64,000 nucleotides of DNA from Capsulimonadaceae bacterium. GTDB lineage: Bacteria > Armatimonadota > Armatimonadia > Armatimonadales > Capsulimonadaceae. The notes below the pieces were generated by a model. It was not told where the DNA came from, did no database searches, and was given only the letters and a program-made list of their open reading frames with translations. Within the stretch, counting starts at the first letter, position 1; the number at the start of each line of letters is the position of its first letter. The DNA is taken from positions 124,001-188,000 of the forward strand of contig JARLGU010000041.1 of assembly GCA_031292625.1 (NCBI GenBank), given 5' to 3'. The translations under genes and the position numbers were made by a program. Shown here one piece after another: positions 16,980 through 55,562 of this stretch.

Positions 16980-18677
16980 CTACGGCCGATTATCCTGAAG
17001 AAGCACGTGATCGCAGTTGACTGTCTCAGTCGCATTCACGTGCTCGGGATTCAATCCTTGCCCGCGCAGAGCCCGTTCGAGAATCGAAAACTGCGGATGA
17101 GGCTCGCACGTGTTTCCTGTAATCGTCACATGATCCGTGGATGTCACGAGGATATTCGGGTATGCACAGTTGCGAATCGTGTTTCCGGTAACGGCGATAT
17201 TGTTGTGCGCGCCGGCAGGCGCTACTTTGCCCGAACCTGAGTTCGCCGCGACAAGAATCCCAAACGTTGCGCAATTCGATATCTGATTATTCCGAATGAC
17301 AACATTGTTCGAGCTGCCTGCTTCCAACCAGTAATACTCTGGAGTAACCAGGATAGCCGGCCCACGCGAACCGCTGAGGATATTGTTCTCGACGACGCCA
17401 TCGCTCGCCTTGATCAGAATCCCTCGCGACCGGTTCGAGCCGAAAGTGCAACCGCGGACGACGAAGCCGTTCCCTGTCCGGCGCGTAGAGCAGATCAGGG
17501 TTCCCTCCGGCACGTCGATGGACCGATCAAGCGCTACCTTGAACGTCTTGGGATTCCAGTTCGTCTTGTATGCCTCTAATAGTCGCTGTTTGGCAAGAAA
17601 AGCCTTCTCGTCGTCGTTAATCGGCACGTCTTGCGCTACGGACGTTACGGTCGCATCGGGCAATCGAAGTCCATCATAACTCCAGATCTCGACCGGCTCG
17701 CCTACGGCCGGCATGCCGTCCGCCGAACTACTCAGCACGCGCAGAACGTTTCCGGCACACGCGGCGACCATCTGGTACCTGCCGTGTATATTGACCGCAT
17801 CATCCCCCATCCATCCCGCCGTGCACTCGATAATCGACGGCCCCTTCGTCGCCCCCACGCTGTGAAAGGCGTCCGCATCCAACGATCGGATACGCGGATC
17901 GGCTCGCACGGCAATATCGGACGTGGCCGGGCGGCGATCAATACGACACCTGTAATACGTTGTCGAATCGCAACCGTTTTCCAGGAATCCGAACGCCGTG
18001 GACGCCCAAACGTTAATCTGCTCGAGGCGCACTCCGCTGCAATGGTCGAGCGCTACGGCGTGGCCTATTCTGCCATGCGGAGCGTAATTGCTGCCGATTG
18101 CAATAATGTCCCCAACCTGCTCCGGATCGGTCGTTCTCGCGTGGCTGTTCGTTATACGAAGATGCGATGCGTCGATCACCTCCGGCATGGGCGTCGTGAG
18201 TTCCTCCATGCGAAGCGTGCGCGTATCCGGGGCGAAGATCTCGATCTTGAAATTGCTCGCCTGCTCAGCGGGAGGATAACCGGCAAAGATCTCGACATCG
18301 ATCAGCTTCTTGTCGGACGAGACCGCGGTAATGTGTCCCTGCGTATACGGCAGCGGATCATAATCAATCGATAAGCCGCGCAGTGTAAGGTTGGCGCAGT
18401 TCGCAATCGATACTGCGCGCGTGGTTTCGGTGCAGATCATCTCAACGCCGCTGGCATCGATTTCCGTATCGTTGATCCCGGTCAGCAGAAGATGTATTCG
18501 GTTGCACGGTGTGATGCGATACCTTCCCGGCGGCACGACGATTTTCTTCTGCCCCGAAGCAACCGCCTTATCGATATAGCCTTGCAAGTCAAACGGCACG
18601 CCTGCGATTGGCGCCGCATGCGTGGCATCCATTAGGCACGCGGCGGCGAGAAATAGCGCTGAGATTAGCTTAGACAT
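16980..18677 (-). CDS. Secreted right-handed parallel beta-helix protein, GH110-like
   Basis: About 565 residues. The signal peptide is MSKLISALFLAAACLMDATHA. The N-terminal part, with VVPPGRYRI, TEIDASGVEMIC and LTLRGLSIDYDPLPYTQG, follows the pattern of GH110 proteins (L.IDY....F.QG). The centre carries DAFHSVGATKGPSI and GWMGDDAVNIHGRYQMV, where the paired Asp would sit at the GH110 catalytic position. The C-terminal half shows clear rungs (NRSRGILIKASDGVVENNIL, NVVIRNNQISNCATFGILV). In GH110 this fold removes alpha-1,3-galactose; that activity here is inference. ATG at 18677 is preferred for its signal peptide (GGAGG 12 bases upstream); ATG at 18713 overlaps the fucosidase stop region and is an alternative. 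Confidence 0.8.
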   Translation of the reverse strand: MSKLISALFLAAACLMDATHAAPIAGVPFDLQGYIDKAVASGQKKIVVPPGRYRITPCNRIHLLLTGINDTEIDASGVEMICTETTRAVSIANCANLTLRGLSIDYDPLPYTQGHITAVSSDKKLIDVEIFAGYPPAEQASNFKIEIFAPDTRTLRMEELTTPMPEVIDASHLRITNSHARTTDPEQVGDIIAIGSNYAPHGRIGHAVALDHCSGVRLEQINVWASTAFGFLENGCDSTTYYRCRIDRRPATSDIAVRADPRIRSLDADAFHSVGATKGPSIIECTAGWMGDDAVNIHGRYQMVAACAGNVLRVLSSSADGMPAVGEPVEIWSYDGLRLPDATVTSVAQDVPINDDEKAFLAKQRLLEAYKTNWNPKTFKVALDRSIDVPEGTLICSTRRTGNGFVVRGCTFGSNRSRGILIKASDGVVENNILSGSRGPAILVTPEYYWLEAGSSNNVVIRNNQISNCATFGILVAANSGSGKVAPAGAHNNIAVTGNTIRNCAYPNILVTSTDHVTITGNTCEPHPQFSILERALRGQGLNPEHVNATETVNCDHVLLQDNRP

Positions 18678-18709
18678 GTAGGTAGCACGCCTCCATAGGA
18701 CTGACTCCA

Positions 18710-20530
18710 TCACGAACGCCCAGCTTTTGCCGGCGTCAATATTATGCGGCGCAAGTTCATTACCGCTGCTCCTGGTTTCGATATGGGCACAATCGAAATA
18801 TGCTGGACGCCGCCTTCAAGGTGAAGATTTGCGCCGTCGCCCACCGGAGCCGTTGTGTACGAACTCCAAGCGCCGGTCTCCGTAACGCTTCCCCTTACCT
18901 TGGAAGATGCCGACGCGATAATGTCAAACGTCGATCCCCCTGAACCTTTGTCGCACGAGTACTCTAGTTTCACGGTGTAGTCTCCGCCGGCAGGAGGCAC
19001 GTGAACCTTCCAGCTCGCCTTATCCGCGACGTTCATCCAGTATCCAATATTTGATGGCGAGTTCTCGATCTTCAACCCGTCCGTCAAATCCGCATCGTCC
19101 GCTGAGAGCAAAATGGATCCGTCTGCCCGCGGGTATATCTCCGCGCTCACCGGCGCGACGTCAATCGGTCCCTTGAGCTTCAGGACAATCACAGTATCCA
19201 ACGGATCTGGTTTCGAAGGCGCTGAAATCGTCGTCACTCCATCCGAGCCTTTCGCGACGGTAAGGTTACCGTGACCAACGAGGGTCGTCGCGGAGACAAC
19301 CGGCGTAATAAGGCCTGGAAGCATCGCGCTGCCTGATTGCCAGTTGAACACGTGTAGAAACAGCGTGTTATGCTTGGTCGTAATTCTCTCGTACGTGGGT
19401 AGCCTTGAGAGCGGGGATGCCGTGGTTCCGTAGATGCTTTCGCCGTTCGCTTTCATCCAATCGCCAACTTGCCGCAGACTATCGACCTCGCCCTGGGGAA
19501 TGACGCCAAGCGGATCAGGACCGACGTTGAGCAAATAGTTGCCGCCCTTGCTGGCGATATCGACGAGATTGTGGACCAGTACCGCAGCGGACTTAAAGTG
19601 ATCGTCGTACGACACATAACCCCAGTGGTCGTTGATCGTCATGCAGGTTTCCCAGTCCCTGTTCTTAAAGCCGGTCGCGGGGATGTTCTGCTCAGGCGTC
19701 TCCGTATCTCCGGAGACCCCATTGCCTAGCCGGTTGTTCATGATCAGATCGCGGTCGAGAGGAAGCGCCTCGGTCAAGGCTCGTATATCGTCCTTGGACA
19801 TGGCGACAGGCGTGTCCCACCACAAAATGGCGGGATGATACTTCGTCACGAGTTCTCGCACCTGGGGGGCCGCGATCGTGCGGACATACTCATCGAGATC
19901 GCCATCCTGCGCTTGCGGATCCCAATGTCCGTGATATGCTGCGCCGCCCTTATGATGCCAGTCCTGGGCCTGGGAGTAATAGACGCCGAATTTTATCCCC
20001 TGCTTCTTGCAAGCCGCAGCCATTTCGGCAATGGGATCGCGCTTAAAGGGAGTCGCATCGTAGATGTTGTATCCATCGGTCGCCGTGTGGAACATGGCGA
20101 AGCCTTCGTGATGTTTGGCGGTCATCACGATGTACTTCATTCCGGCAGCCTTCGCGATCGACACCCATTTCGCGGCATCAAAGTGCACCGGGTTGAACTG
20201 TGGCGCCGCCTTCGCATATTCCGCGACCGGGATCTTGCCCACGTTCATGATCCACTCGCCGCCCCCGACACGCTTGCCATCGTACATACCGGCATACTCA
20301 GCGTAGAGCCCCCAGTGTATGAACATGCCAAACTTGGCTTCCCGCCACCATTTCATGCGCGCGTTATGCTGCGAGGCGCTTTCGGGTGCGCCTCCTGGGC
20401 TCGCAAAGACGACGGGAGGCAGCGCGTTTGCGGCAGGCGGTTCCGCGCATGCGAGCTTTGCGCCCATGCACGCGGTCAGGCAACCGACGGCGAGTGCTAT
20501 TCTAAATCGGTGGTTGATAGAGATATTCAT
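18710..20530 (-). CDS. Secreted GH29 alpha-L-fucosidase
   Basis: About 606 residues with a signal peptide (MNISINHRFRIALAVGCLTACMG). The GH29 domain begins near residue 55: MKWWREAKFGMFIHWGLYAEYAG, GMKYIVMTAKHHEGFAMF, and PAILWWDTP, whose Asp (about residue 239) is at the nucleophile position. The C-terminal part (from about 440) is a beta domain, possibly carbohydrate-binding. Function: hydrolysis of terminal alpha-L-fucose by a retaining mechanism, outside the cytoplasm. The start at 20530 has GGAG six bases upstream. The gene is followed closely by the GH110-like gene, so the two may act together on fucosylated galactosides. Confidence 0.93.
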   Translation of the reverse strand: MNISINHRFRIALAVGCLTACMGAKLACAEPPAANALPPVVFASPGGAPESASQHNARMKWWREAKFGMFIHWGLYAEYAGMYDGKRVGGGEWIMNVGKIPVAEYAKAAPQFNPVHFDAAKWVSIAKAAGMKYIVMTAKHHEGFAMFHTATDGYNIYDATPFKRDPIAEMAAACKKQGIKFGVYYSQAQDWHHKGGAAYHGHWDPQAQDGDLDEYVRTIAAPQVRELVTKYHPAILWWDTPVAMSKDDIRALTEALPLDRDLIMNNRLGNGVSGDTETPEQNIPATGFKNRDWETCMTINDHWGYVSYDDHFKSAAVLVHNLVDIASKGGNYLLNVGPDPLGVIPQGEVDSLRQVGDWMKANGESIYGTTASPLSRLPTYERITTKHNTLFLHVFNWQSGSAMLPGLITPVVSATTLVGHGNLTVAKGSDGVTTISAPSKPDPLDTVIVLKLKGPIDVAPVSAEIYPRADGSILLSADDADLTDGLKIENSPSNIGYWMNVADKASWKVHVPPAGGDYTVKLEYSCDKGSGGSTFDIIASASSKVRGSVTETGAWSSYTTAPVGDGANLHLEGGVQHISIVPISKPGAAVMNLRRIILTPAKAGRS

Positions 20531-20596
20531 GAATCGCTCCACAATGGAATGGGCTCCAGGGTTATTGGCGTGGTAAGCTACGAATTCAACGCAGGA

Positions 20597-35970: not shown

Positions 35971-35995
35971 GCGATCGCGTTGCTACCGCGCCGTC
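35971..35995 (+). repeat. Direct repeat copy B, 25 bp, spanning the DUF4127 stop codon
   Basis: Matches copy A with one extra T. It includes the last codons and the TAG stop (35983-35985 on the plus-strand scale) of the DUF4127 gene. A repeat formed from the 3' end of a gene is what site-specific integration leaves as attL/attR. Confidence 0.7.
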
Positions 35996-37545
35996 AGCTC
36001 GAAGTCAACCTCAAACGTCCGACGCCATGGAAGCCTTGTACTGGCCGGTGCGATGTCCACTTCGCGGCCAATTCCCGACCGCCGCAGCTCCGCCAGCAAT
36101 TCCATCAAACGCCCCTCGATAAACAGTGCGATCTCGTGCTGGTTCGTTATACAATCAGGATCGGGTTCGCGCTTGCCCCAGAGCCTTTCGCACTCATCCC
36201 TCGCCTCTTTCCGCACTACGCTTTGATAGCCGCAGTCTTCCAAGAACCGATGCGCCAGAAAAATCCGCTGAGCATCGCGCTGCTCTGGCGTTTCCGCCTT
36301 GAGGGCAAGGGAGGCCTGAGCAACGACCACGCCAAGCGTATTGCCTGCAGTGTTCCACGCGCCGTATGCGGCGAGGTCTCGTGCCAGCACGCCGGATTTC
36401 GGGGATAGGAGCAGACGCGTAAAGAGAGGATCTCCGCCATTAGGATAAGCGACATCGGCGATCGCAACCGGCTTCCCGATTGTTTGGCGCCCGGCAAGTC
36501 GAGCGATGAAGGCCTCGTAAGGTTGTGTACGCACCGCTGCGTCTCGCGCAAGAAACTCTGGCCTGTAATCGTCCTGTGCAGGATTGGGCGTCACAACCGC
36601 CAGCACGAAATCAGCGGCAGAAACGTCGTCCACGACAGCGCATCCGCACGCACGAATCTGACCGAGCACGGTCTGCTCAATCGCGCGGTCCTCGTACCGC
36701 GCAACCACGGTCCTGTCAGCATCGATGGCGTAGTCGACATACACTCGCGGCGTTTGTCCTGTTGCTTCGTTGATCACCCGCGCAACAAGCGCTGAGCCGA
36801 CCTCGTCCGCGCCCGGATACGCCTGGACGCGAGTTGACAACGGCTCGCCAATCAGCCTTCCCCACCCGATCAGCCAGCTTCTTTCACGCGACGAGAGCCC
36901 GTACGGCGCGGTGTCATCGCTTGTGAGCGCAAGCGACGTAAGTTCTCCGCGCGACGCCATGTCAAGGAGAGAGAGGTTGACGGCATGGTTGCGCAAGCGC
37001 CGGTTTAACCAGTCTGAACGAAGATCAGCCGGGAGTTCGGCGGTCAGACTACTCAGCTCCGCAGCATCGTTCGCGGGCAAATCGCTGACCTCGCTCCGAT
37101 GAAAAAGATGCGCCCAGCGGTAGAACCGCGTTCCCCACTCCGCCCAATACAGCGGCTCCTCGACACAGTCGTTCGCGTTCGCAACCCGCGTGATCACGGA
37201 AAATGCGTGCACTGGACAGCGGACGTTAATCTCCGCGAGCAACCCCAGGCGCGCGGCCGCCGCATGCGCGGAGTCCTGCGAGATGCGTGCGTTGATCAAG
37301 TTACCGAATGCGAGATAGTCACACGACGCCACGACGCACGATGCAGCTTCAGCGGTCGCGCGAAGCCACTGTGCGACGGCATCCAGGTCCGCGCTCGAGC
37401 GGCCATGTCCCCGGATTTCCTCAGGCGGCAACAGGACGCTCCAACCCGCGATCCGCGCAAGCATCTCAGGGTATCGCGTATTAACGGGCCGCTCATCGAG
37501 CGGCAGTAGAAGGATCGTGTTACTGCCGGCCTCACGCGGTGGCAT
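35983..37545 (-). CDS. DUF4127 family protein
   Basis: 520 residues. The start (NTILLLPLDERPVNTRYPEMLARIAG) is the diagnostic LPLDERPVN motif of DUF4127, followed by ASCDYLAFGNLINAR, FSVITRVANANDC and LTSDDTAPYGLSSRE. The family has no proven reaction; conserved Asp, Arg and Asn residues suggest an enzyme. No signal peptide is seen, so it is cytoplasmic. It overlaps the GH38 gene by 14 bases and is translated after it (GGAG seven bases upstream), so a role in handling mannose-containing oligosaccharides or their products is likely. Confidence 0.9.
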   Translation of the reverse strand: MPPREAGSNTILLLPLDERPVNTRYPEMLARIAGWSVLLPPEEIRGHGRSSADLDAVAQWLRATAEAASCVVASCDYLAFGNLINARISQDSAHAAAARLGLLAEINVRCPVHAFSVITRVANANDCVEEPLYWAEWGTRFYRWAHLFHRSEVSDLPANDAAELSSLTAELPADLRSDWLNRRLRNHAVNLSLLDMASRGELTSLALTSDDTAPYGLSSRERSWLIGWGRLIGEPLSTRVQAYPGADEVGSALVARVINEATGQTPRVYVDYAIDADRTVVARYEDRAIEQTVLGQIRACGCAVVDDVSAADFVLAVVTPNPAQDDYRPEFLARDAAVRTQPYEAFIARLAGRQTIGKPVAIADVAYPNGGDPLFTRLLLSPKSGVLARDLAAYGAWNTAGNTLGVVVAQASLALKAETPEQRDAQRIFLAHRFLEDCGYQSVVRKEARDECERLWGKREPDPDCITNQHEIALFIEGRLMELLAELRRSGIGREVDIAPASTRLPWRRTFEVDFELTAR

Positions 37546-40051
37546 CCGCTGCCTCCGCCTTCAGTCCCTCCGAACCGTTCGTAACGCGCCACGTCGCAAT
37601 CCCGCCCTTTGGCACATCGCCGAGTACGACCTTGCCTGCCGGCATCGTAAACGAAACCGACTTGGCGCATTCCGTTTGATTGTGGACGCGAACGACGACA
37701 CCCAATCCGTCTTCCGCCGGCTTATACGCGAGCAAGCGCACATCGGACGGCTCGATTGCCCCCAGCGTGCCTGAGCGCGCCAAACGGCCTTTTCTCGCCA
37801 GAACGGTCTGCACGAGTATCGGCTCTGCAATAACTTGCGACAGCTGCTCGATTGGAGCAGCGTTGCCCGTTACCAGGAATCGGAACTTGAGCTCCCCGCG
37901 ATCTACGGCCGGGTTCCATACCTCCGCCTCAGGATCGCCCGCTCCCGTATCCGCTCCGCCGAGGTTTCCGGCGGCATACCGCGACGCTCGCGCGACGGTC
38001 GCGTAGAAGACCCCATCGTGCGTGCTGAAGCTGGAAAGCCCATCCGACGCAAACGCGATCGCGTTTTGGGGCGATTTTACCTTCACCCAGCGTCCGCCGG
38101 GTTCCTCGCCCACTTGCGTGCAGGTCGTCGCTCCTCCGGCCCTGTCGTAGAGCGCTTCAAGCGGCGCACCTGCGCTGACAGGCATCACGAGCTTGATTCG
38201 AGCCGCGCGCTCGTTCCAGAGGAGCCGCGCCGTCACATCCACCGCATCTCGACCGCCGGTGAGCGAGAGCGTCAAATCCAAAACGCTGTGACCGCCGGTC
38301 AGGCGAACCCAAAGCGAGGCATGCAGCGGGCCATCCTCAAGCACCTTAACGCGTTCGACGCTCCATCCGAAACGAACGTTGGTCAGCGCGTTCCGGACGG
38401 GGTCGTCGGATTCCATGTCGCCCCACGATCCGTAAGGATCTTCGACCGTTACCGCACCAAGCCCCGCGCCGTCCAGCAGCGCGACTCCGTCACGCTGGAT
38501 GGAAATGCCGTGGTCGCCGGCCTTTGCCTCTATGCGGTAACGACGGCTCTGAATGACGCCCTCTTCAGGCGACGAGACGAGATCGGCTGCCGGGATGACT
38601 GGCTTCTGAGCGCCTTCCCTGTACGCCAGCTCGAATACAGACCAGCCGAGCGCGGGCAGCAGCGGCGCCGCGGAAACTCGGATGCGCCACGGAGGATCCT
38701 GCATCACCAGCGATTCCACGCGGATGCGTTGACAGGGAACGGGAAGTCCTTCGGGACCAATGAGTTCGTACGGCAGTTCGCTGTTGCGACCGGCATACGC
38801 GTAGACCTGGCGATAGTCGATATTGGCCTCGATCTGAATCGGCGTCGCCACGGGGTAAGGATGCGGATTGAAAACGAGCACCGATGCACCGGTTGGAGCG
38901 TAACCTTCCGCCGGTCTCACGCTCGTATCGACGAGGTTGGCGAGCCGGTTAATCGCCGCGAACTCCGTTGAGCGCACATCGTGACGCGCCCCGGCCATCC
39001 ACTCGATTTGTTCATCCACCGCGCGCTCAATGCTTGAGCCTGGCAAAATGTCATGGAAGGTGTTGAACAGTGCGGCATCCCACCCTTTTGCAATCGCCGG
39101 CAGCGTGCGCAGCGCTCCGCTTGGCGCCTCAAGCACCGCGATTGCGGTCGTCGCGCGTTCCGCGCGGCATACGCCGGATTCAATCGAATGAAATGCGAAT
39201 TTTTGCTTCGCGATGGAAGAGTAACAGCCTCGTGCAAAATGCTGCAAGTCGCCGCTGTGGGTCGGGAAGAAATTCTCGCCCTTAGCACGAACCTCCTCGC
39301 GCAGCGCGCCGAACAACCCATGGAGCGTGGAAAAGACGACACGCACCTCCGGATGCTTCGCTCGCCATTCGTCCACGTGTTCCAGCTGGCGGCGAGTCGG
39401 ACCGCCGCCGTGGTTGCCAAGGCCGAAGAACGCGCCGATGTTGGCGGGCTCGTACTTTGCGGATAGTTCCAAGAGCGAATCAAGCCTGCGCGGTACTTCC
39501 TCGTGCTCCGTCCCGTACCAGCCGCCAAGCGGACGGTACGCAAGAATCCGTGATCCTCCCGGACCTATCCACCAGAATGGCCCCCGGTAGGGCGTATTCT
39601 CCGGCCGCGTAAAAGCAAATCCGCTCATTCCGGCCGCAGCGATGATGTCCGGAAGTCCCTCCGGATGACCGAATGAATCGGCGGCCCACAGAATCTTAGG
39701 CGTACGGCCGAACCGCGTCCGGAAAAAATTCTGTCCGCGCGTGAAGTGGCGGATTAAAGTCTCCGTTGCTGGAACGTTATTGTCGGGCTGGATGAATGTC
39801 CCGCCCACCAGTTCCCATCTCCCCTCTTTTACATATTGCTTGATGCGCTCAAAAAGGTCGGGCGCCGCCGTTTCAATGTGTTCATAGATCAGCGACTCCC
39901 CTCGCATAAACGTTAGCTCCGGACGCTCATCCATCAGATCCAGCACAGCGCGGCACGTAATAAGCCCCTCATTGAGACCCTCGCGCCAATCCCAGAGCCA
40001 CACAGGGTCAAGGTGGGCATTTGCAATCAGATGCAAAGTCTTCGTAGACAT
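37532..40051 (-). CDS. GH38 alpha-mannosidase
   Basis: 839 residues, normal for bacterial GH38. The catalytic domain starts at once with LHLIANAHLDPVWLWDWREG (the HxD zinc motif). It continues with LWAADSFGHPEGLPDII, which holds the Asp nucleophile, and FNTFHDILPGSSIERAVDEQ with the conserved HD. The C-terminal two-thirds are beta domains (SRRYRIEAKAGDHGISIQRDG, WGDMESDDPVRN). It releases alpha-linked mannose. No signal peptide is present, so it probably acts on imported oligosaccharides. AAGGA lies seven bases before the start. Operon with DUF4127. Confidence 0.95.
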   Translation of the reverse strand: MSTKTLHLIANAHLDPVWLWDWREGLNEGLITCRAVLDLMDERPELTFMRGESLIYEHIETAAPDLFERIKQYVKEGRWELVGGTFIQPDNNVPATETLIRHFTRGQNFFRTRFGRTPKILWAADSFGHPEGLPDIIAAAGMSGFAFTRPENTPYRGPFWWIGPGGSRILAYRPLGGWYGTEHEEVPRRLDSLLELSAKYEPANIGAFFGLGNHGGGPTRRQLEHVDEWRAKHPEVRVVFSTLHGLFGALREEVRAKGENFFPTHSGDLQHFARGCYSSIAKQKFAFHSIESGVCRAERATTAIAVLEAPSGALRTLPAIAKGWDAALFNTFHDILPGSSIERAVDEQIEWMAGARHDVRSTEFAAINRLANLVDTSVRPAEGYAPTGASVLVFNPHPYPVATPIQIEANIDYRQVYAYAGRNSELPYELIGPEGLPVPCQRIRVESLVMQDPPWRIRVSAAPLLPALGWSVFELAYREGAQKPVIPAADLVSSPEEGVIQSRRYRIEAKAGDHGISIQRDGVALLDGAGLGAVTVEDPYGSWGDMESDDPVRNALTNVRFGWSVERVKVLEDGPLHASLWVRLTGGHSVLDLTLSLTGGRDAVDVTARLLWNERAARIKLVMPVSAGAPLEALYDRAGGATTCTQVGEEPGGRWVKVKSPQNAIAFASDGLSSFSTHDGVFYATVARASRYAAGNLGGADTGAGDPEAEVWNPAVDRGELKFRFLVTGNAAPIEQLSQVIAEPILVQTVLARKGRLARSGTLGAIEPSDVRLLAYKPAEDGLGVVVRVHNQTECAKSVSFTMPAGKVVLGDVPKGGIATWRVTNGSEGLKAEAADATA

Positions 40052-46023: not shown

Positions 46024-48678
46024 GTGAAAGCGCGAGTCATGAAGAGGTCCCAAGCACACGAGAATACGTCCGCTCAACACGCCGCGGTAATCCATGCGGC
46101 GGAAGACTTTGAAATGAACGCTGATAATCTCGCCTCCAACAAAGCGCTCGAGTGGCCCGGCTATAGCAGTTCGGCGAAAACGGCGGAGGAGCTGATCGAG
46201 ACAAACGCGCTTTTGACTTGGGCCTCCCAGCGCTTTGCGGACCTATTTCGAGATCTTCCCGTAATCTGCTTTTGTTATGACCAGGATGGATGCGTCTACG
46301 AATGGAACAGGGCCTGCGAACAAGAAACGGGCTTTACGGGAGATCAGGTTGTTCAGCAGCGCATATGGGAGACGTTCTTCCGTCCAGAGGACAAGGAACG
46401 GCTTCAATCGATCACCAACGACGTCTTCAACGGCAAGACGTTTACCGGCCTTGAACTGGAGATGGTTCGCTTCGGCGGCGCCGCCTTCCCTGTCTTGAAT
46501 AATACGTACCCTCTTCGGCATCAGGACGGAACAGTCGTAGGCGTGATAAGCGCCAACGTCAACATCGAAGATCGCGTCCATGCCGAAAGCGCGTTGCGCG
46601 TTAGCGAAGAACGTCTGCGCCTCGCCGTTGAAATCGCTCAGCTCGGAACCTGGCAGTGGGATCTAAAAACCAATGTCATCTCTTGGAGCGAGATCGATGC
46701 GCGCCTAATGGGCTTCCCTCCAGGCCGTCTCTGCGTGCCATCCGAGCTGTTCTTGTCTCGCATCCATCCCGACGACCGTGCGCGCGTCGAATCCTCTATG
46801 CGCTATGCAAGAGAGACGGGCTCGGTTTATGAGAGGGAATTCCGGATTGTACGACCTGACGGCACGATCCGATGGGCAATTGTTCACGGAACGTTCGTAT
46901 TAAACGAACTCGATCAGCCCACCAAGATTATTGGCACGACCCTCGACATCACCGACAGGAAAGAGGGGGAGGATCGCCTTCAGCGCGCACAAGATGCGCT
47001 AGAAGCTCGAGTACAGCAGCGCACGAGAGAATTGGCCCATGCCAACGAAGCGCTTCACGAGGAAATAACTGTCCGCCGGGCCGCCGAAGAAGACATTCGC
47101 ATGTACGGCGAAGTTGTCCGGAATATGCCGCTTGGCGTGGTCGTCTATCACCTTGAAGACGACCAGGACGACTATTCGCTTAAAATCACCCTGTATAATT
47201 CCGCGGTGGAAAACCGCGGCGTCATCGGAGCCAAGCGAGGCATCGGCTGCTATGTACGTGACGTCTATCCGCCAAGCACGGTCGACCAGTTAGCCCACCG
47301 AGTTGCCGAAGTCGTGCGGACAGGCGAACCCGATTCGGTGGAGCAAGCGGATTGCGACGAGAACGGCGCGCTCCGCAGGGTGCTCTCCATCCAGATCTTT
47401 CCTCTCCCAAATCGCCGTGCCTGCGTGGTAGTCGACGACATTACGGAGAAACGCCGCTCAATTCACGAATTGCAGCGGGCTCATGCGCAGAATGCGCAAA
47501 TACTGGGGTCAATTGGTTCCATTTTGATTTGTGTTGACGAAAAGTATGTCGTCACAAGCTGGAACACGATGGCCAGCCATACGTTTGGCACGTCCGCTAC
47601 CGACACCGTGGGCAGGAAGCTCACCGATACCGCGATTCAGTGGGACTGGGAGCCGGTCATGATGGCGCTCTACGAGTGCAACAATACGAATCTGCCGGTT
47701 CGCTTGGAAGATCTCCGCTATACGAGCATTGACTGCAAGGAGTGCTTTCTTGGTCTAACAATCAATCCGCTCAAGGATGTCAACGAAAAGCAATCGGGCT
47801 TCCTTCTCCTCGCAACGGACATCACCAAGAGACGCGTCCTGGAAAGCCAGCTTGCCCAGTCGCAGAAACTCGAATCGATAGGCAACCTCGCCGCCGGCAT
47901 CGCCCATGAGATCAACACGCCGATCCAGTACGTCGGCGATAACACGCGGTTCTTGAACGACGCGTTTCTTGACCTTCACAAGGTTGTAAAGACCTGCAAG
48001 GATATCGTTGAGGCGACTGAGAAACACGACAGCGTGAACGAAATTGTCAAGCAACTACGCAGCGCCCTTGAGGAAGCAGACGTCGACTACCTTACGGAAG
48101 AGATTCCATCCGCAATCAACCAGTCTCTCGAGGGAGTCGAGCGGGTCGCTCATATCGTGCGGGCAATGAAGGAGTTCTCTCATCCCGGGCAAGAAGAGAT
48201 GACATCCGTAGACCTCAATAGGGCCATCGACAGCACGATCACGGTCGCTCGGAACGAATGGAAATATGTCGCCGATATCCACACCGACTTCGAGGAGGAT
48301 CTACCTGCCGTTCCTTGTTATCCGAGTTCCTTCAACCAGGTAATCCTGAACATGATCATCAACGCCGCGCACGCGATCAGCGATGTGGTCGCCGGGTCAA
48401 ACAGCAAAGGAACGATATCCGTTTCCACCCGGCGAGCCGGAGGCATGGCAGAGATCACGATCTCGGACACTGGGACCGGAATCCCCGCCGACATCCTGGG
48501 ACGCATTTACGACCCATTCTTTACGACCAAGCCGGTTGGTCGCGGCACCGGACAGGGGCTGTCCATCTCGCACACCGTAATTGTCGAGAAGCACCAGGGC
48601 ACCATTGACGTCGACACGAAGGTCGGTTCCGGTACGACATTTACAATACGCCTTCCCCTGCATCGGAAAAGCACGTAG
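46024..48678 (+). CDS. Multi-PAS cytoplasmic histidine kinase
   Basis: 884 residues, no transmembrane segment. PAS/PAC domains lie at about 70-190 (VICFCYDQDGCVYEWNRACEQETGF), 195-315 (LGTWQWDLKTNVISWSEIDARLMGF), 355-475 and 490-610. A coiled coil of about 40 residues (QDALEARVQQRTRELAHANE) separates the second and third. The H-box is LGNLAAGIAHEINTPIQYVG-like text at about 618-640. The ATPase domain has NMIINAAHAI (N box), DTGTGIP (G1), PFFTTKPVGRGTGQGLS (F, G2). It should phosphorylate the REC domains of the next two genes. The GTG start has no ribosome site; ATG at 46114, with GGAAG upstream, is an alternative. Confidence 0.9.
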   Translation: MKARVMKRSQAHENTSAQHAAVIHAAEDFEMNADNLASNKALEWPGYSSSAKTAEELIETNALLTWASQRFADLFRDLPVICFCYDQDGCVYEWNRACEQETGFTGDQVVQQRIWETFFRPEDKERLQSITNDVFNGKTFTGLELEMVRFGGAAFPVLNNTYPLRHQDGTVVGVISANVNIEDRVHAESALRVSEERLRLAVEIAQLGTWQWDLKTNVISWSEIDARLMGFPPGRLCVPSELFLSRIHPDDRARVESSMRYARETGSVYEREFRIVRPDGTIRWAIVHGTFVLNELDQPTKIIGTTLDITDRKEGEDRLQRAQDALEARVQQRTRELAHANEALHEEITVRRAAEEDIRMYGEVVRNMPLGVVVYHLEDDQDDYSLKITLYNSAVENRGVIGAKRGIGCYVRDVYPPSTVDQLAHRVAEVVRTGEPDSVEQADCDENGALRRVLSIQIFPLPNRRACVVVDDITEKRRSIHELQRAHAQNAQILGSIGSILICVDEKYVVTSWNTMASHTFGTSATDTVGRKLTDTAIQWDWEPVMMALYECNNTNLPVRLEDLRYTSIDCKECFLGLTINPLKDVNEKQSGFLLLATDITKRRVLESQLAQSQKLESIGNLAAGIAHEINTPIQYVGDNTRFLNDAFLDLHKVVKTCKDIVEATEKHDSVNEIVKQLRSALEEADVDYLTEEIPSAINQSLEGVERVAHIVRAMKEFSHPGQEEMTSVDLNRAIDSTITVARNEWKYVADIHTDFEEDLPAVPCYPSSFNQVILNMIINAAHAISDVVAGSNSKGTISVSTRRAGGMAEITISDTGTGIPADILGRIYDPFFTTKPVGRGTGQGLSISHTVIVEKHQGTIDVDTKVGSGTTFTIRLPLHRKST

Positions 48679-48680
48679 AC

Positions 48681-49886
48681 ATGGGAACTTTGCCGAAAAT
48701 ACTGTTCGTCGATGACGAGCGCAACATTTTGCAGGGCCTGCAGCGTATGTTGCGGCCCGAGCGTCACATTTGGGATATGACCTTCGCGGGAGGAAGCGTC
48801 GAGGCGCTTTATGAGCTTGAGCAGAGCGCGTTCGATATTGTCGTAACCGATATGCGGATGCCTGTCATGAATGGCGCCGAGCTCCTCGAGGAGATTCGGC
48901 GCCGTTATCCGAGCACCGCGCGAATGGCGCTCTCTGGGCACACGGATCGAGAGTTTATCTTCCGAGTCGTATCGTCGACACACCAATTCCTTAGTAAGCC
49001 ATGCGATGCCGATGTCATAAAGAATGCCTTGTCCCGCTGCATTGCCGCAAGCGCATTGATTGAAAACAAAGAGCTTCGGGCGAACATCGGAAGCAGCCAG
49101 GCAGTCGCGATCTTCCCTGCCAATCTCGAGTCGTTTCAAAATGCTCTGGTATGGGGAGAAAGCAGCGCGTCTAAGGTTGGCCGTATCGTCGAAAGAGACA
49201 TTGGCCTCACTGCCAAGTGCCTGCAGTTCGTGAACTCCGCCTTCTTCGGCACCCCGCGCGAAATTTGCTTGCCGGAGCAAGCCGTCGCAATGATTGGCAT
49301 TGAGACGCTTCGAGAAGTGTACGGTTCGCCCGATCTGCGCTCGGAGTTTCCCGAAAATGAGTTCAATCATTTAAAGCCGATGGACCTAGCGGACCATAGC
49401 ATGCTGACCGCAAGGATTGCGAGACTAATCGCCGAATCCGAAGACTTGCCCGCCAGAACCGCCGATGCCGTTTTTATCGCGGGCATGCTGCATGATGTCG
49501 GCAAGCTCATTTTCGCCGCCACTAATCCTGCCGCATGCGACTCGTTGCCTTGTTGGTCTGGACAGGATACAAGGAATCGCGAGACCGAGCTGTTCGGGGC
49601 GTGCCACTGTCGCGCGGGAGCCTACCTGCTCAGTCTGTGGGGGTTTCAGCCAAACGTCGTAAGCGCGGTGGCGTGGCACCACGCCCCAATGGCGCTCGCC
49701 GATGAGCCGTCCTGGCCTCTTACGATCGTGCACGTCGCCAATCTACTCGCCAACGAGTTCGCCGGAACGCGCGATCGCAGCGACGATTACGACGAGCGCT
49801 ATTTGATCGCCACAAATACTTTAGACAAGCTCGCCGGCTGGAAACAAACGGCCGCCGGGGCCATCATGAACGGAGCCGTCAGATGA
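48681..49886 (+). CDS. Response regulator, REC-HDOD
   Basis: 401 residues. REC at 1-125 is intact: ILFVDDERN (acid pair), VVTDMRMPVMNG (phospho-Asp), ALSGHTD (Thr/Ser) and FLSKPCD (Lys). From about 140 to 370 is an HDOD domain (VGRIVERDIGLTAKCLQFVNSAFFG, AVFIAGMLHDVGKLIFA). HDOD domains are HD-related, usually without full metal sites, and act in signalling output. It begins two bases after the kinase stop and its own stop overlaps the next start. Confidence 0.92.
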   Translation: MGTLPKILFVDDERNILQGLQRMLRPERHIWDMTFAGGSVEALYELEQSAFDIVVTDMRMPVMNGAELLEEIRRRYPSTARMALSGHTDREFIFRVVSSTHQFLSKPCDADVIKNALSRCIAASALIENKELRANIGSSQAVAIFPANLESFQNALVWGESSASKVGRIVERDIGLTAKCLQFVNSAFFGTPREICLPEQAVAMIGIETLREVYGSPDLRSEFPENEFNHLKPMDLADHSMLTARIARLIAESEDLPARTADAVFIAGMLHDVGKLIFAATNPAACDSLPCWSGQDTRNRETELFGACHCRAGAYLLSLWGFQPNVVSAVAWHHAPMALADEPSWPLTIVHVANLLANEFAGTRDRSDDYDERYLIATNTLDKLAGWKQTAAGAIMNGAVR

Positions 49887-51085
49887 ACGAAAAGATTCTA
49901 TGCGTCGATGATGATCCTAACATCCTGGATGCCTACAAGCGCAGTTTGCGCAAGATTTACACAATCGATACGGCTCAGGGCGGAGAGGCGGGGCTTGCCG
50001 TCTTAACCGAAAAAGGACCGTACGCTGTCGTCGTCAGCGATCAGCACATGCCCGGCATCAGCGGCGTGCAGTTCCTCGCCAAAGCGCGCGACGTCGCCCC
50101 GGACACCGTACGCATGATGCTCACCGGCAACGCCGATCTCAACGTTGCGATCAACGCGCTGAACGAAGGGGCGATCTTCCGCTTTCTTGTGAAACCCGTT
50201 ACGCCTGAGAACATGGCCGTGATCCTCGAACATGGAGTCGCGCAATATCGCCTCGTAACGGCTGAGCGTGAACTCTTGGAGAAAACCCTCCGTGGTTCCG
50301 TTCGGATCCTCATTGAAATTCTATCGAGCCTTAATCCCGACCTGTTCGGCCGCTCTCAACTTCTCCGCCAGGAGATGAGGCAGATTTCGGACATTCTTGG
50401 ACTAACCGACAATTGGTCGCTCGAACTGGCCGCGATGCTTGCCCAGATCGGCATGGTAACTCTGCCGACAAACCTCTTTCAACGACTGGAAAAGGGCGCG
50501 CCGCTCAACGCGACCGAACAAGCGATGCTCGACCGCACCCCGGAAATCAGCTATAAATTGCTGGCAAACATTCCACGCCTCGAACAAGTAGCGCGAATGA
50601 TCCGCTATCAAAATAAGAACTACGACGGCTCGGGCATTCCCGATGACAACGTCTCCGGCGACGCCATTCCAGTTGGCGCGCGCATCCTTAAGGTGCTTTT
50701 GGAGTGGCACCAGATCGAGGCTCGAGGGGCCTCAAGATCCGGCGCCTACGCCCTTATGCGTAACCGCAGAGGCTTTTACGATCCGACCGTCTTCGAGGCG
50801 CTTGGTCGAATTTTAGGTCAGCCGGAAAATGCCGCGAGCAAGCGACCACCAATTCGAATAAAACTGATTCAATTGAAGGTAGGTCATGTCCTCGCGTCGA
50901 ATATGGAAACGGACGAAGGGAAGCTCCTGATCGCGGCCGGGCACCAGATCACGGAAACCCTGTTGGAGAAGATCTTCAACTATAGCGAAATTGCAGGTAT
51001 CCGTGAGCCGATCATAATCGAGCAACCGGCTGAACCAATTGCACCCCTGTCGTCTCAGCCCGGAGTCGCTCGACGCGCTGCTTAG
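49883..51085 (+). CDS. Response regulator, REC plus degenerate HD-GYP domain
   Basis: 400 residues. REC is intact (ILCVDDDPN, VVVSDQHMPGISG, MLTGNAD, FLVKPVTP). The second domain follows the RpfG/HD-GYP path, but the catalytic residues are lost: the HD of the HDIGK motif is replaced in LAAMLAQIGMVTLP, and HH..-DGSGYP reads RYQNKNYDGSGIP. Cyclic-di-GMP hydrolysis is therefore unlikely; it may bind the nucleotide or a partner. The C-terminal 60 residues (LKVGHVLASNMETDEGKLLIAAG) form the extra module common to this family. It overlaps the REC-HDOD gene by four bases with GGAG seven bases upstream. Confidence 0.88.
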   Translation: MNEKILCVDDDPNILDAYKRSLRKIYTIDTAQGGEAGLAVLTEKGPYAVVVSDQHMPGISGVQFLAKARDVAPDTVRMMLTGNADLNVAINALNEGAIFRFLVKPVTPENMAVILEHGVAQYRLVTAERELLEKTLRGSVRILIEILSSLNPDLFGRSQLLRQEMRQISDILGLTDNWSLELAAMLAQIGMVTLPTNLFQRLEKGAPLNATEQAMLDRTPEISYKLLANIPRLEQVARMIRYQNKNYDGSGIPDDNVSGDAIPVGARILKVLLEWHQIEARGASRSGAYALMRNRRGFYDPTVFEALGRILGQPENAASKRPPIRIKLIQLKVGHVLASNMETDEGKLLIAAGHQITETLLEKIFNYSEIAGIREPIIIEQPAEPIAPLSSQPGVARRAA

Positions 51086-51158
51086 CCTTCGGTTCTTGCA
51101 ACCGCACCGGCTTGCGCGGCGTCGTCACATTGACACTCTCGGAGGTAAGCGTCAAGGA

Positions 51159-52796
51159 ATGGCTCGTCGGCGGCGCGTGGATGAAAAAATGCTGCTCGTC
51201 CCTGGGGAAGTTATCCAGGGGCACCATCGGTATGCTGTCGACACGGTCGTTGGCACTGGCGCGTACGCGTGCGTCTACCGCGCGACCGATGAACTTGGCC
51301 GGCTAGTCGCTCTTAAAGAGTACTTCCCACCGTCGCATCCCCGGGAAATCGCCAACCTCAAGAACCTCTTTGAACGAGAACGCTTTATTCTGACCCAGGT
51401 CAGCCCGCACCCGCAGGTGCCGACGTTCTACGAAGGTTTCATTGCCGACAACCAGTACTACATCGCCCAGGAGTTTATTGCCGGACGATCGCTCGATGAG
51501 GTTATCCGCGCCGAAAAGCAAATTAGCCGCGAGTGGATGATCAAATGGGCAATCAGCCTTTGTGAAGCGCTGTCGTACATGCATAACCGGCAAATCGTGC
51601 ATCACGATCTCAAGCCGCCTAACATCCGCATTACGCCCGAGAACCATCTTAAGCTGCTCGACTACGGCGCCGCAATCTATCTTGGCAAGATGGACGAGAC
51701 GGTCCCCGAAAGCATGCACAACGAGACCGAGCTGTTCGGGACGGAAGGCTATCTTCCGCCTGAAGTAGAAGAAACGTTTAAGGCCGATATCCGGACCGAT
51801 ATCTTTGCCCTCGGCTGCATTCTCTACGAGCTCGTCATGGGAGAGCCGCCGGAACAACAATCGATCAACGAGCGCAACCTTTACGTCACCACTCCGCTGA
51901 TGCAGCGTAAGGATGTGGATCTATCGTTCGTCAAGCTCGTAACGACCGCGCTTTCGTATAACACGGAATTCCGCTATGCCAACGCAGGGATGTTCGCGGC
52001 GGAACTGCGTAAAATCGCGCAGGCGATGCTCTTCGTTACCGCGAAAAGCATCTACTTCGGCAATGTCGACCTTGGTACGGCGACCTCGCAAAAGTTTCGG
52101 ATGTTCAACGGAGGCGGCAAAGGCGATCTTGTAGGCGAAATCAAACCCAAGGTTCCCTGGATCCGCATTGAGGTGCCGGGCTTCCGCACGCAAAAGCGCG
52201 ATGTCGTCTTGATAGCGGACACCACCAAGGTCCCACGCCGCAATCAGGTCGTTCGAGGGCAGGTCGAGATTGTTACCAAGGATGTGGTTAACGAAGACGG
52301 CGAAATGCTCGCCCGGGCGGATCGGTGGACCGTCGATTGCTATATCACGGTTAACGCCAAGTCAGCCAAGCTCGTTGCCGTTGACGCTGCTGGCAAAGCA
52401 GTCAATCTCGATGTGCATGTACGCCTCGGCCAAACCGCGCGCCTGAACTTCACGCTCCGCAACGACGGTGAAATGACATCCGAGGGAACACTCGAGATTG
52501 CCGGCGACCCAACGGAGATCGTCGTAGGCCCCGACATGTTCCGGCTGAAGCCCGCCGCTTCCGTTGCGCTCGTTGTCGTGGTTCCACCCTTTCCAGGGGC
52601 AACTGCGGGCGAGCATCGCGAGATCATTATAGAAGCGAGAGAGGACGGCAAGGCTGTTGCCGCAATTCCAATTCAATATCACGTCGAAGGCACTTTCGAC
52701 TTTGTAAAAGGATTGTTTTCTCGCAAGATGTCGCGAAAGCTCGAACAGCGTCCTCCTGACGACGCTGCGCCGCCCTCAGCGGATCCAAAGACGTAG
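51159..52796 (+). CDS. Soluble Ser/Thr protein kinase with C-terminal beta domains
   Basis: About 545 residues. The kinase domain (about 15-285) has VVGTGAYACVYRA (Gly loop), VALKEYFP (Lys), IVHHDLKPPNIRI (catalytic loop, HHD in place of HRD), LLDYGAA (DYG in place of DFG) and TEGYLPPEV. All essential residues are present, so it is probably active and of the non-RD type. Residues about 290-530 are beta-rich with Ig-like text (VHVRLGQTARLNFTLRNDGEMTSEGTLEI). No transmembrane helix. ATG at 51159 has a nearby GGAGG; ATG at 51189 is an alternative. It starts about 70 bases after the REC-HD-GYP stop. Confidence 0.87.
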   Translation: MARRRRVDEKMLLVPGEVIQGHHRYAVDTVVGTGAYACVYRATDELGRLVALKEYFPPSHPREIANLKNLFERERFILTQVSPHPQVPTFYEGFIADNQYYIAQEFIAGRSLDEVIRAEKQISREWMIKWAISLCEALSYMHNRQIVHHDLKPPNIRITPENHLKLLDYGAAIYLGKMDETVPESMHNETELFGTEGYLPPEVEETFKADIRTDIFALGCILYELVMGEPPEQQSINERNLYVTTPLMQRKDVDLSFVKLVTTALSYNTEFRYANAGMFAAELRKIAQAMLFVTAKSIYFGNVDLGTATSQKFRMFNGGGKGDLVGEIKPKVPWIRIEVPGFRTQKRDVVLIADTTKVPRRNQVVRGQVEIVTKDVVNEDGEMLARADRWTVDCYITVNAKSAKLVAVDAAGKAVNLDVHVRLGQTARLNFTLRNDGEMTSEGTLEIAGDPTEIVVGPDMFRLKPAASVALVVVVPPFPGATAGEHREIIIEAREDGKAVAAIPIQYHVEGTFDFVKGLFSRKMSRKLEQRPPDDAAPPSADPKT

Positions 52797-52820
52797 ATCT
52801 AACAGAGAGGGGAGGACGAC

Positions 52821-53306
52821 ATGGCCGAAGGAACTCAGGCGACATACCTCCAACCAACGAATGAGGCAGGCCGCGCGCTATTCAATCGCGGTATCAAAGG
52901 CGATGTCGTCATGCTGAACCTGCTCCGCTTCCGCGATGTAGCAGATTACTCCGCCAACCCTGAACTCGCGCCGGATGCGCCTGTTAGCGGCGAGGAGGCT
53001 TTCAACTTATACATCAAGCACACCCTTCCGTTCCTCAAAGAAAGCGGCGGAGCTCTAACGTTTCTGGGTAAGGGCGGTCCCTTTTTAATTGGTCCAGAGA
53101 CTGAGCGCTGGGATCTCGCGATGCTTGTGCGCCAGAGCAGTGTCGATTCGTTTATCGCCTTCGCTTCGCATGAAGCCTATCTTGCGGGCCTCGGACATCG
53201 CACCGCTGCCATCGAAGATTCACGGCTATTGCCGCTCGTAGAAGTCGACCTCGACGAATACGATAATTGCCTCGCGCAACCCCGCGCGTCTTCTCCCTTG
53301 CCCTGA
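52821..53306 (+). CDS. DUF1330-like small protein
   Basis: 161 residues. KGDVVMLNLLRFRDVADY, YIKHTLPFLKESGGALTFLGKG and the conserved spacing to WDLAMLVRQSSVDSFIAFASHEAYLAG match the DUF1330/dimeric alpha-beta barrel pattern. Members bind or modify small molecules, but most are uncharacterised. Set between two kinase genes with a strong GGGAGG site five bases upstream, it may be a ligand sensor of the module. Confidence 0.75.
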   Translation: MAEGTQATYLQPTNEAGRALFNRGIKGDVVMLNLLRFRDVADYSANPELAPDAPVSGEEAFNLYIKHTLPFLKESGGALTFLGKGGPFLIGPETERWDLAMLVRQSSVDSFIAFASHEAYLAGLGHRTAAIEDSRLLPLVEVDLDEYDNCLAQPRASSPLP

Positions 53307-53408
53307 AGTTATTCATCAAACCCCGCATTTTCAACAGCCAGTATTCACGCTCCAGCGGCCAACCATTTAACCGGCGGCAAGCTTTGCCCTGCCGCTTGGA
53401 GCGATTGG

Positions 53409-55562
53409 TTGAGAGATCACAGCGAACAAAATGGGCGATCGAGGGTTCTTTGGGGCCATCGGGTGCTGCATAGACTCGGAAGCGGGCCTCTTGGGTCCGT
53501 CTACGCGGCGGTCGATCTAGCAACCGGTCAGCGAGTCGCGCTGCGAGGCTTTAGACGCCCGCACGGCGCGAACCAGGAGCGCTGGGACGCCGCGATCGCC
53601 CGGTTCGCTGCGGCGATGGCGGACCATTGTCTCATAGACGATCACCCGGCTATCCAAAAGATCGTCCGGTTCGGCCAAGATGGGCATATCTTTTACGTCG
53701 CGACCGAATACCTCGACCACCCTACCCTTCGCGACGTGCTGGACGAGAGCGGCCCAATGCAGTTGCCACAAGCTCTTGATATTCTTCGGGACGTTGCAGA
53801 CGCTCTGGACTACGCCGCCGCATCCGGATCAGCGCACGCTGATTTGACACCCCGAAATATTCTCGTTACCCGGGGCGCGCCTGCGGCAATCGTCACCAAC
53901 TTCGGCCTCGCTCAAGCGCGCGATAAAGGCGATTCGGTCTACCTTTCGCCGGAGCAGATTCGCAGTGGCGATTCGGGGCCGCGCTCGCACATTTTCTCCG
54001 CCGGCGTGATCGCCTATGAGATCCTGAGCGGAGCGCCGCCCTTCTCCGGAGATTCGGCGACCACGCGCCGCCGCTGCGTCCTCACGAACAAGCCCGCGCC
54101 GCTGGCCGATCAACCACCTTACGTTTGGCAGATCCTCCGAAAGATGATGGCCACTGACCCGGCGGATCGCTACGAGAACGTAACCGAGGCGATAGAAGAC
54201 CTTGCGCACCGTCGTAAACCGGCCTCGCCCCTTTTCTCGGCGGCCTCATCAAACGAATATGCGGCGGAAGGCAATCTCGCTGTTATTAACCGCGTTCAGA
54301 TCGCTCCAGAGCAGATCGAGCAGTCGTCCGCGAGCCTCGAAATGTCAAACTGCGCCCCCGTGCTCAGCGAGTTCGGCGTCCAGCGCCAACACGTCATCGA
54401 ATGGTCTCTCTACATTGATACCGCGCACGAGATGTTGACGCGCGCGCTGTTATCGTCCAAAGCCCGCGCAAAAGTCGTGGCAATTGTCCTTGCCGCCGGC
54501 GCTCTGATGCTGCATGTGTCCAGGGCCCGCATCGACTACGACCATGGAACGGTCATCGCGGCGACCGGTTCGCCCCGTCTTGCGCTTAACGGCACGCCGA
54601 TACCAATTTCGGCTGGCGACGGCGTATCGTCGAAGGGCTTTCAAATGCTCTGCACCGACGCGGCGTCAAGCGTTGTTGTGTCTATGAGAGGGTGCCGGCT
54701 TAAACTCCTGCCGGGCTCCAAACTCATTCTCCGCCGCCTTGGGTACGAAGGAGGGCCAGACCGTCAATTCCAGCTTGTACAAGGAACCGTTCTGGAAACG
54801 ATCGATCCTCGCCACCGCAAGTCCGCATTATTCGAAACCCTGGCTGGCCAACTCGCCATTCACAGCAGCGGCGGCCGTCTCTCGGCAACCGTCGATCCGG
54901 CCGGTCAGACTCACGTGATTAACTTCGGCGGAAACTTAAGCGTTGACGCACAAGGCGACACTGTTCAGGTGCCGCGGCGGCAAGCGGCAATAATCGATCC
55001 GCATAACATCGCTCTGCCGCTCGTCGGACCAATCGACGACAGTCAACGCACTGCATTTGAACAGCAAAAGGACCTTTTAGCGCCCTCCTCATTAACCGAG
55101 CGCCTCGACAATACCCTCGCCATTGCGGAAGATGAAGTGCTTCTTCGCGCAGCGGATGATCTAGCCGCGCTGCAAACGTCGCGTACGGAAAAGGCAATCA
55201 AAGACGCACAGGCGCTCCAGGCTGCCCAGGCCGCTGTTCATGCAATTGCTCTGTTGATCGAAACCAGCGACAACGGGGACGTGCCTCGCGACATCGATCT
55301 AACGACGCTGGAACCGGTCAGCGCTGGAACCAACATGCAGGCGGCTCTCAACAATCTCGACGGACACCAGCTTCTTTCGTACAAGCAAGTTGACAGCGGA
55401 CGCTATGAGTTTATGGCGCGAGCTTGCGATTCTACTCACACGCTGTTCCGAGTTCGCGACGGCGCCGTTGAAATCGTCCAAGAAAACGCTGTAAAGCGGC
55501 AGCCTCTTCTGAGTATCATCAAGCGCTTCATTAATGGCAGCGTTATCCCCTCGAAGCGCTGA
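53409..55562 (+). CDS. Pseudokinase with TM helix and FecR-like domain
   Basis: 717 residues from a TTG start (GGAG seven bases upstream). The kinase fold (about 18-275) keeps LGSGPLGSVYAAVD (Gly loop). The VAIK Lys is Arg (VALRGF, residue 46), the catalytic-loop Lys is Thr (AHADLTPRN; Asp145 kept), and the DFG Asp is Asn (TNFG, residue 164). Phosphotransfer is therefore unlikely. A hydrophobic helix follows at about 355-375 (VVAIVLAAGALMLHV). The outer part (about 380-530) is FecR-like (GDGVSSKGFQMLC, LLPGSKLILRRL, FQLVQGTVLETIDP, FETLAGQLAIHSSGG). The tail is helical. This architecture is unfamiliar to me. Confidence 0.83.
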   Translation: MRDHSEQNGRSRVLWGHRVLHRLGSGPLGSVYAAVDLATGQRVALRGFRRPHGANQERWDAAIARFAAAMADHCLIDDHPAIQKIVRFGQDGHIFYVATEYLDHPTLRDVLDESGPMQLPQALDILRDVADALDYAAASGSAHADLTPRNILVTRGAPAAIVTNFGLAQARDKGDSVYLSPEQIRSGDSGPRSHIFSAGVIAYEILSGAPPFSGDSATTRRRCVLTNKPAPLADQPPYVWQILRKMMATDPADRYENVTEAIEDLAHRRKPASPLFSAASSNEYAAEGNLAVINRVQIAPEQIEQSSASLEMSNCAPVLSEFGVQRQHVIEWSLYIDTAHEMLTRALLSSKARAKVVAIVLAAGALMLHVSRARIDYDHGTVIAATGSPRLALNGTPIPISAGDGVSSKGFQMLCTDAASSVVVSMRGCRLKLLPGSKLILRRLGYEGGPDRQFQLVQGTVLETIDPRHRKSALFETLAGQLAIHSSGGRLSATVDPAGQTHVINFGGNLSVDAQGDTVQVPRRQAAIIDPHNIALPLVGPIDDSQRTAFEQQKDLLAPSSLTERLDNTLAIAEDEVLLRAADDLAALQTSRTEKAIKDAQALQAAQAAVHAIALLIETSDNGDVPRDIDLTTLEPVSAGTNMQAALNNLDGHQLLSYKQVDSGRYEFMARACDSTHTLFRVRDGAVEIVQENAVKRQPLLSIIKRFINGSVIPSKR

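Follow-up and report, generated by a model that had tools for sequence, protein, structure and literature searches.

A widespread three-gene cassette of histidine kinase, HDOD regulator and degenerate HD-GYP regulator, and its unrelated Ser/Thr kinase neighbours in a Capsulimonadaceae genome

Six consecutive genes in a Capsulimonadaceae genome raise the question of which of them belong together and how the signalling proteins that they encode might act. The genes lie in the window analyzed here, a stretch of 64,000 nucleotides (assembly GCA_031292625.1, contig JARLGU010000041.1, positions 124,001 to 188,000). They had originally been predicted to form one module that joins His-Asp to Ser/Thr signalling and has no DNA-binding output. 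All six reading frames are open (Table 1). Pfam and residue checks supported the proposed domain architectures and the lack of a DNA-binding output, and the terms degenerate HD-GYP and pseudokinase were upheld at the level of individual residues. The first three genes are indeed tightly coupled, with a gap of 2 bases between the kinase and REC-HDOD genes and an overlap of 4 bases (49883-49886) between the two regulator genes.

Table 1. The six reading frames of the locus, with positions in the window.
Feature	Position	Strand	Remarks
Multi-PAS histidine kinase (HK), 884 aa	46024..48678	+	Pfam PAS_4/PAS_9/PAS_3/HATPase_c; DHp motif HEINTP; cassette gene 1
REC-HDOD response regulator, 401 aa	48681..49886	+	Pfam Response_reg + HDOD; cassette gene 2
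REC-degenerate HD-GYP response regulator, 400 aa, C-terminal beta-containing domain	49883..51085	+	Pfam Response_reg + HD_5; cassette gene 3
Ser/Thr kinase, apparently active, ASH/Ig-like beta-rich tail	51159..52796	+	Pkinase E 1.3e-40
DUF1330-like small protein	52821..53306	+	phmmer to RPA0582 (3dca/3hhl)
Pseudokinase - TM - FecR-like - C-terminal domain, 717 aa	53409..55562	+	VAIK/DFG residues lost

The conserved unit of this locus is formed by the PAS histidine kinase, REC-HDOD and REC-degenerate HD-GYP genes in this order (46024-51085), and it is real and widespread. GTDB genomes were scanned with an alignment of the HD-GYP protein, which yielded 80 loci, and phyla were assigned from record titles. 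Altogether 88 cassette loci or sequences besides that of the window entered the comparisons, 73 of them with at least 2 kb of downstream sequence. Counts of upstream genes were restricted to the 66 loci, Armatimonadota loci among them, with at least 2.6 kb upstream. On the same strand as the HD-GYP gene, a kinase gene was present in 63 and an HDOD gene in 59 of these eligible loci, and both were present in 56. The genes mostly abut or overlap: the median distance between the HDOD and HD-GYP genes is -1 base (61/70 within 60 bases), and that between the kinase and HDOD genes is 0 bases (46/58 within 60 bases). The original prediction had placed such neighbours in several phyla; by record titles the order is kept in at least a dozen. 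Titles of the carriers name Planctomycetota, Verrucomicrobia/Lentisphaerae, Nitrospirae, Nitrospinota, Acidobacteria/Holophagaceae, Desulfobacterales and other Deltaproteobacteria, Myxococcales, Gammaproteobacteria, Rhodospirillales, Pelotomaculum/Dethiobacter, Chloroflexi, Calditrichota, Hydrogenedentota, Deferribacteres, KSB1 and Armatimonadota. Within the family of the window's genome, the member G006 has a relative of the HD-GYP protein (L063). One carrier, L115, is a Geothrix record, from a culturable and non-pathogenic group; another is titled Akkermansia muciniphila (L120, a MAG contig), a taxon label that may be wrong.

As a control, relatives of a catalytically intact REC-HD-GYP protein that the window's genome also encodes (G000 contig 5, 4019-5089) were inspected, and none of their 30 loci has an HDOD gene within 1.5 kb. 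A degenerate HD-GYP query was used to find the cassette loci by similarity, so that the uniformity of the degeneration is partly a product of this selection; the adjacency of the genes is unaffected by it. The distance matrices of the three cassette proteins correlate with rho 0.41-0.49 when the conserved core of the kinase is used, a value that 0 of 500 permutations reached, although shared descent alone could account for this correlation. When the variable PAS part was included, the correlations of the kinase were weak. No fourth partner recurs beside the cassette; only other receivers, a scattered ABC transporter ATPase and antisense reading frames were encountered there. Seven of the eligible loci are without an HDOD gene, and some loci keep kinase and HD-GYP genes without it. 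Variants of the cassette are L058, L060 and L062, in which a REC-only protein replaces REC-HDOD or the HDOD gene is missing next to kinase and HD-GYP genes; in L058 (G004 contig 368, 8665-9006) the REC-only protein occupies the usual position of the HDOD gene. A tandem pair of degenerate REC-HD-GYP genes was seen on G183 contig 178 (6408-8676).

The residues of the three proteins were then compared across the loci. In the kinase, Pfam detects PAS domains and HATPase_c, and HisKA only weakly (17.1 bits vs a cut-off of 26.9). Its relatives align over residues ~470-882 with a variable N-terminal sensor part, and the HEINTP motif is present in 57 of 58 cassette kinases. The second protein is an HDOD response regulator (PF08668, E 6e-38, 130.8 bits vs a cut-off of 22.9) with an intact receiver, whose phospho-accepting D57 is found in 58/58 sequences. 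Its HDOD domain retains the H..HD..H..HH set (H239, H271-D272, H309 and H333-H334, in 63-70 of 71 sequences) and is without the last metal Asp of HD enzymes; the last position, H351, is His in 57 and Tyr in 11 of the 71.

The third protein belongs to the HD-GYP fold superfamily, as indicated by the Pfam HD_5 match (E 1e-37) and by a Foldseek match to the HD-GYP domain of DvhD. Its receiver possesses D9, D10, the invariant D53, T81 and K104. The metal-ligand pattern of c-di-GMP phosphodiesterases (HD...HHExxDGxGYP...D) is missing from the window protein and from most of the 88 sequences: in the window HD reads AQ, HHE reads QNK, the Asp of ADxxDAL is Leu and GYP is GIP. Among the 88, the His of HD is replaced by Ser in 65, Ala in 11 and Cys in 9 and kept in one, and the Asp position holds Gln in 63, Pro in 14 and His in 4. 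The HHE positions hold Gln in 79, variable residues, and Lys in 77, the ADxxDAL Asp is mostly Leu, and one His, at the position of T219 of the window protein, is still His in 44. With other residues in place of its metal ligands, the degenerate HD-GYP domain is predicted to be unable to hydrolyse c-di-GMP. The cassette thus pairs an HD-type domain that retains most of its metal residues (HDOD) with one that misses most of them (HD-GYP). Many proteins of this kind are probably annotated as c-di-GMP phosphodiesterases, for which the usual metal mechanism is ruled out by their sequences.

The replacement residues themselves are well kept. Q243 is found in 79/88, K245 in 77/88, W178 in 87/88, and P231 and R232 in 88/88 sequences, and a new signature consisting of IPR[LM]E, W178 and YQxK is nearly invariant, with IPR invariant in the alignments. 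The predicted structure of the full-length protein reaches a pLDDT of 87. This conservation across phyla, together with the good full-length model, argues for selection for a changed function and against decay.

The reading that we favour, to which we assign a probability of roughly 0.55, is that one kinase controls two response regulators that would not bind DNA, that the dead HD-GYP protein may be a phosphorylation-gated protein-binding regulator, and that the downstream genes are probably separate. As judged from its intact motifs, the cytoplasmic kinase with its exchangeable multi-PAS sensor would autophosphorylate on the His of HEINTP. The intact receiver residues and the gene order suggest that it would pass the phosphate to both REC-HDOD and the REC-degenerate HD-GYP protein. 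The latter, non-hydrolysing and gated by phosphorylation, would then act through protein contact.

The model for this last step is HnoD of Shewanella, which is without phosphodiesterase activity and suppresses the phosphodiesterase HnoB by direct contact, a suppression that is relieved by kinase input (PMC6335343). By description, HnoD resembles the cassette protein as a response regulator with a non-catalytic HD-GYP domain, and a REC-non-catalytic HD-GYP gene adjoining a histidine kinase gene is what is found here. In contrast, HnoK senses NO and the other Hno regulators are HnoB (EAL) and the transcription factor HnoC, whereas the cassette has a multi-PAS sensor and a REC-HDOD partner. Phosphorylation of a degenerate HD-GYP protein has been described for NosR of Burkholderia by NosK (PMC12570481), where kinase and REC-degenerate HD-GYP genes likewise share a single operon (PMC12570481). 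NosR differs in its motif, which is HG-GTP instead of SQ, and in its sensor, the FIST protein NosP instead of PAS domains; an HDOD gene is not mentioned. The window protein scores 251 bits with the NosR model NF053512, below the curated cut-off of 400, and falls outside that family. VC1087 of V. cholerae, compared by description, also combines REC with an HD-GYP domain without the HD dyad and was inactive in vitro and in vivo (PMC4212101). The cassette is thus a widespread variant within the systems of histidine kinase plus degenerate HD-GYP regulator. Our literature search yielded no paper describing the three-gene cassette and no biochemical test of any of its members.

The likeliest target of the degenerate HD-GYP protein would be the co-encoded HDOD protein or a genuine HD-GYP enzyme elsewhere in the genome. 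Since seven eligible loci are without HDOD, the HDOD protein is not the sole target. The idea of HDOD as the regulated enzyme may also be wrong, because the last metal Asp is absent and the activity of DVU0330 is weak. DVU0330 is, like GsmR, an HDOD response regulator, and it retains the HD residues as the window protein does. It acted weakly on bis-pNPP and not on c-di-GMP (PMC4114195). Both regulators were studied singly, and no partner degenerate HD-GYP protein is described in what is available of that work.

A dead HD-GYP protein whose substituted residues are kept in distant phyla, and whose gene nearly always adjoins those of this kinase and of a metal-retaining HDOD protein, points to a common output of two regulators, for which no describing paper was found and which is testable with purified proteins. 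More tentatively, the HDOD and degenerate HD-GYP proteins may form a phosphorylation-controlled hetero-complex of metal-retaining and metal-lost HD-superfamily partners under one kinase with exchangeable sensors. This we regard as possible and not as the probable outcome; if true, the hetero-complex would be a class of bacterial signalling output in at least a dozen phyla.

A different and rather unlikely role for the degenerate HD-GYP protein is that of a metal-free c-di-GMP receptor whose dimer rearranges, so that the cassette would integrate c-di-GMP with the kinase input. The precedent is DvhD of Desulfovibrio vulgaris, in which SQ likewise replaces HD and the His pair is lost; it binds c-di-GMP without hydrolysing it (PMC13090378). 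The structure of DvhD with c-di-GMP (9rbz) is the nearest solved HD-GYP structure by Foldseek (E about 1e-8, target-normalised TM up to 0.76), and DvhD is among the best profile matches (E 1e-15). However, only one of the eight canonical c-di-GMP contacts of DvhD is kept as an identical residue: L577 corresponds to L208 (80/88), Leu stands at the position of M646 in 72/88, and the positions of Y523, K582, Y621, R650, Y652 and E668 carry other or variable residues in the cassette family. Of the bridging-site residues, P567 alone is retained (84/88), and the RPYR loop is shortened. With these contacts mostly absent, the shared SQ is no proof of shared nucleotide binding. DvhD is moreover a membrane-bound dCache-PAS protein and not a response regulator. 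A receptor role therefore appears less likely than the protein-binding role that we favour.

We consider it improbable that the output runs through the HDOD protein alone, with the HD-GYP protein a decaying relic retained for its receiver as a phosphate sink. The loss of most HD-GYP metal residues and the REC-only protein at the HDOD position in L058 would fit such a relic, but the conserved replacement residues, the well-modelled fold and the loci that have kinase and HD-GYP genes without HDOD argue against it.

Least probable by far is the view that all six genes are one module, with the Ser/Thr kinase and pseudokinase coupled to the two-component cassette, possibly as a recent gain in the genus: the same strand, the gaps of 73 (to the ATG of the Ser/Thr kinase), 24 and 102 bases, and the lack of terminator-like signals above chance at the junctions favour it, but the tail genes are missing from the cassette loci elsewhere and their relatives occur beside unrelated genes. 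The sequence scan found no excess of promoter- or terminator-like sites over chance across the six-gene region, and co-transcription of the six genes is possible. The shared strand says little, since all predicted genes from 43070 to the right edge of the window (43070-63999) are encoded on the + strand. An alternative TTG start of the Ser/Thr kinase at 51039 would overlap the REC-HD-GYP gene; its relatives align from the ATG at 51159.

The six-gene neighbourhood was looked for in 60 relatives, in all 7 genomes of the family, in 291 genomes of the phylum and at 80 named loci; it is not conserved, an outcome that the original prediction had itself named as refuting, and the six-gene module was rejected. 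The co-occurrence search thus confirmed the first three genes in their order and not the six families together. No match to the Ser/Thr kinase, the DUF1330-like protein or the pseudokinase lies beside any of the 88 other cassette loci. Of the 291 Armatimonadota genomes, 24 have the degenerate HD-GYP protein (E≤1e-50), 13 the Ser/Thr kinase and 12 the pseudokinase (E≤1e-42), and these three traceable families coincide only in the window's genome. The 11 other genomes with the pseudokinase contain no close relatives of the Ser/Thr kinase or the degenerate HD-GYP protein. A coupling of His-Asp to Ser/Thr signalling is thus unsupported, as the distributions of kinase and pseudokinase overlap only here. 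The three downstream genes are separate genes and chance neighbours of the cassette in this genome. They have possibly been joined to it recently and specifically in the genus, which is represented by one genome only in the comparison.

Two of the six reading frames contain Pkinase domains according to Pfam. The Ser/Thr kinase carries the motifs VALK, HHD and DYG of active Hanks-type kinases and is apparently active. Relatives with 41-47% identity are found in all six other family genomes at unrelated loci (L065-L070), where the typed neighbours are LacI/PAPS-reductase, uracil-DNA-glycosylase, HIT or TetR genes and never the cassette. In the single-contig genome G002, it lies at 4.52 Mb, with HD-GYP copies at 2.32 and 3.57 Mb. 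It looks like a core gene of the family, with a close relative in all seven Capsulimonadaceae genomes at unlinked loci. The DUF1330-like protein has no Pfam match and is homologous to RPA0582 (E 6e-14); it was found in one of the 60 relatives, unlinked.

In the pseudokinase, the Lys of VAIK is replaced by Arg in 13/13 sequences (VxRGF) and DFG reads N[FYW]G in 12 of the 13 and YFG in one; the window protein has the Arg and the Asn, and the Asp of the HxD catalytic loop is kept. Neighbours of the first four relatives examined are TPR, SurE/FtsZ and methyltransferase genes, and further loci are likewise without cassette genes. FecR has no Pfam match in the window protein, but two of five aligned family members match it (best E 3e-15). 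The literature search turned up no paper in which "pseudokinase" and "FecR" occur together. Some members of the family (the window; L002, L004, L153-L160) have the TM-FecR part and a C-terminal domain, others the kinase fold only. The AlphaFold model of the pseudokinase, from a 5-sequence alignment, has a pLDDT of 56 and was set aside. The pseudokinase belongs to a patchy Armatimonadota family of its own. Elsewhere in the window, glycan-related genes were noticed at 16980-20542 and 35983-40051, namely those for an alpha-L-fucosidase, a beta-helix protein and a GH38 alpha-mannosidase adjoining a DUF4127 protein.
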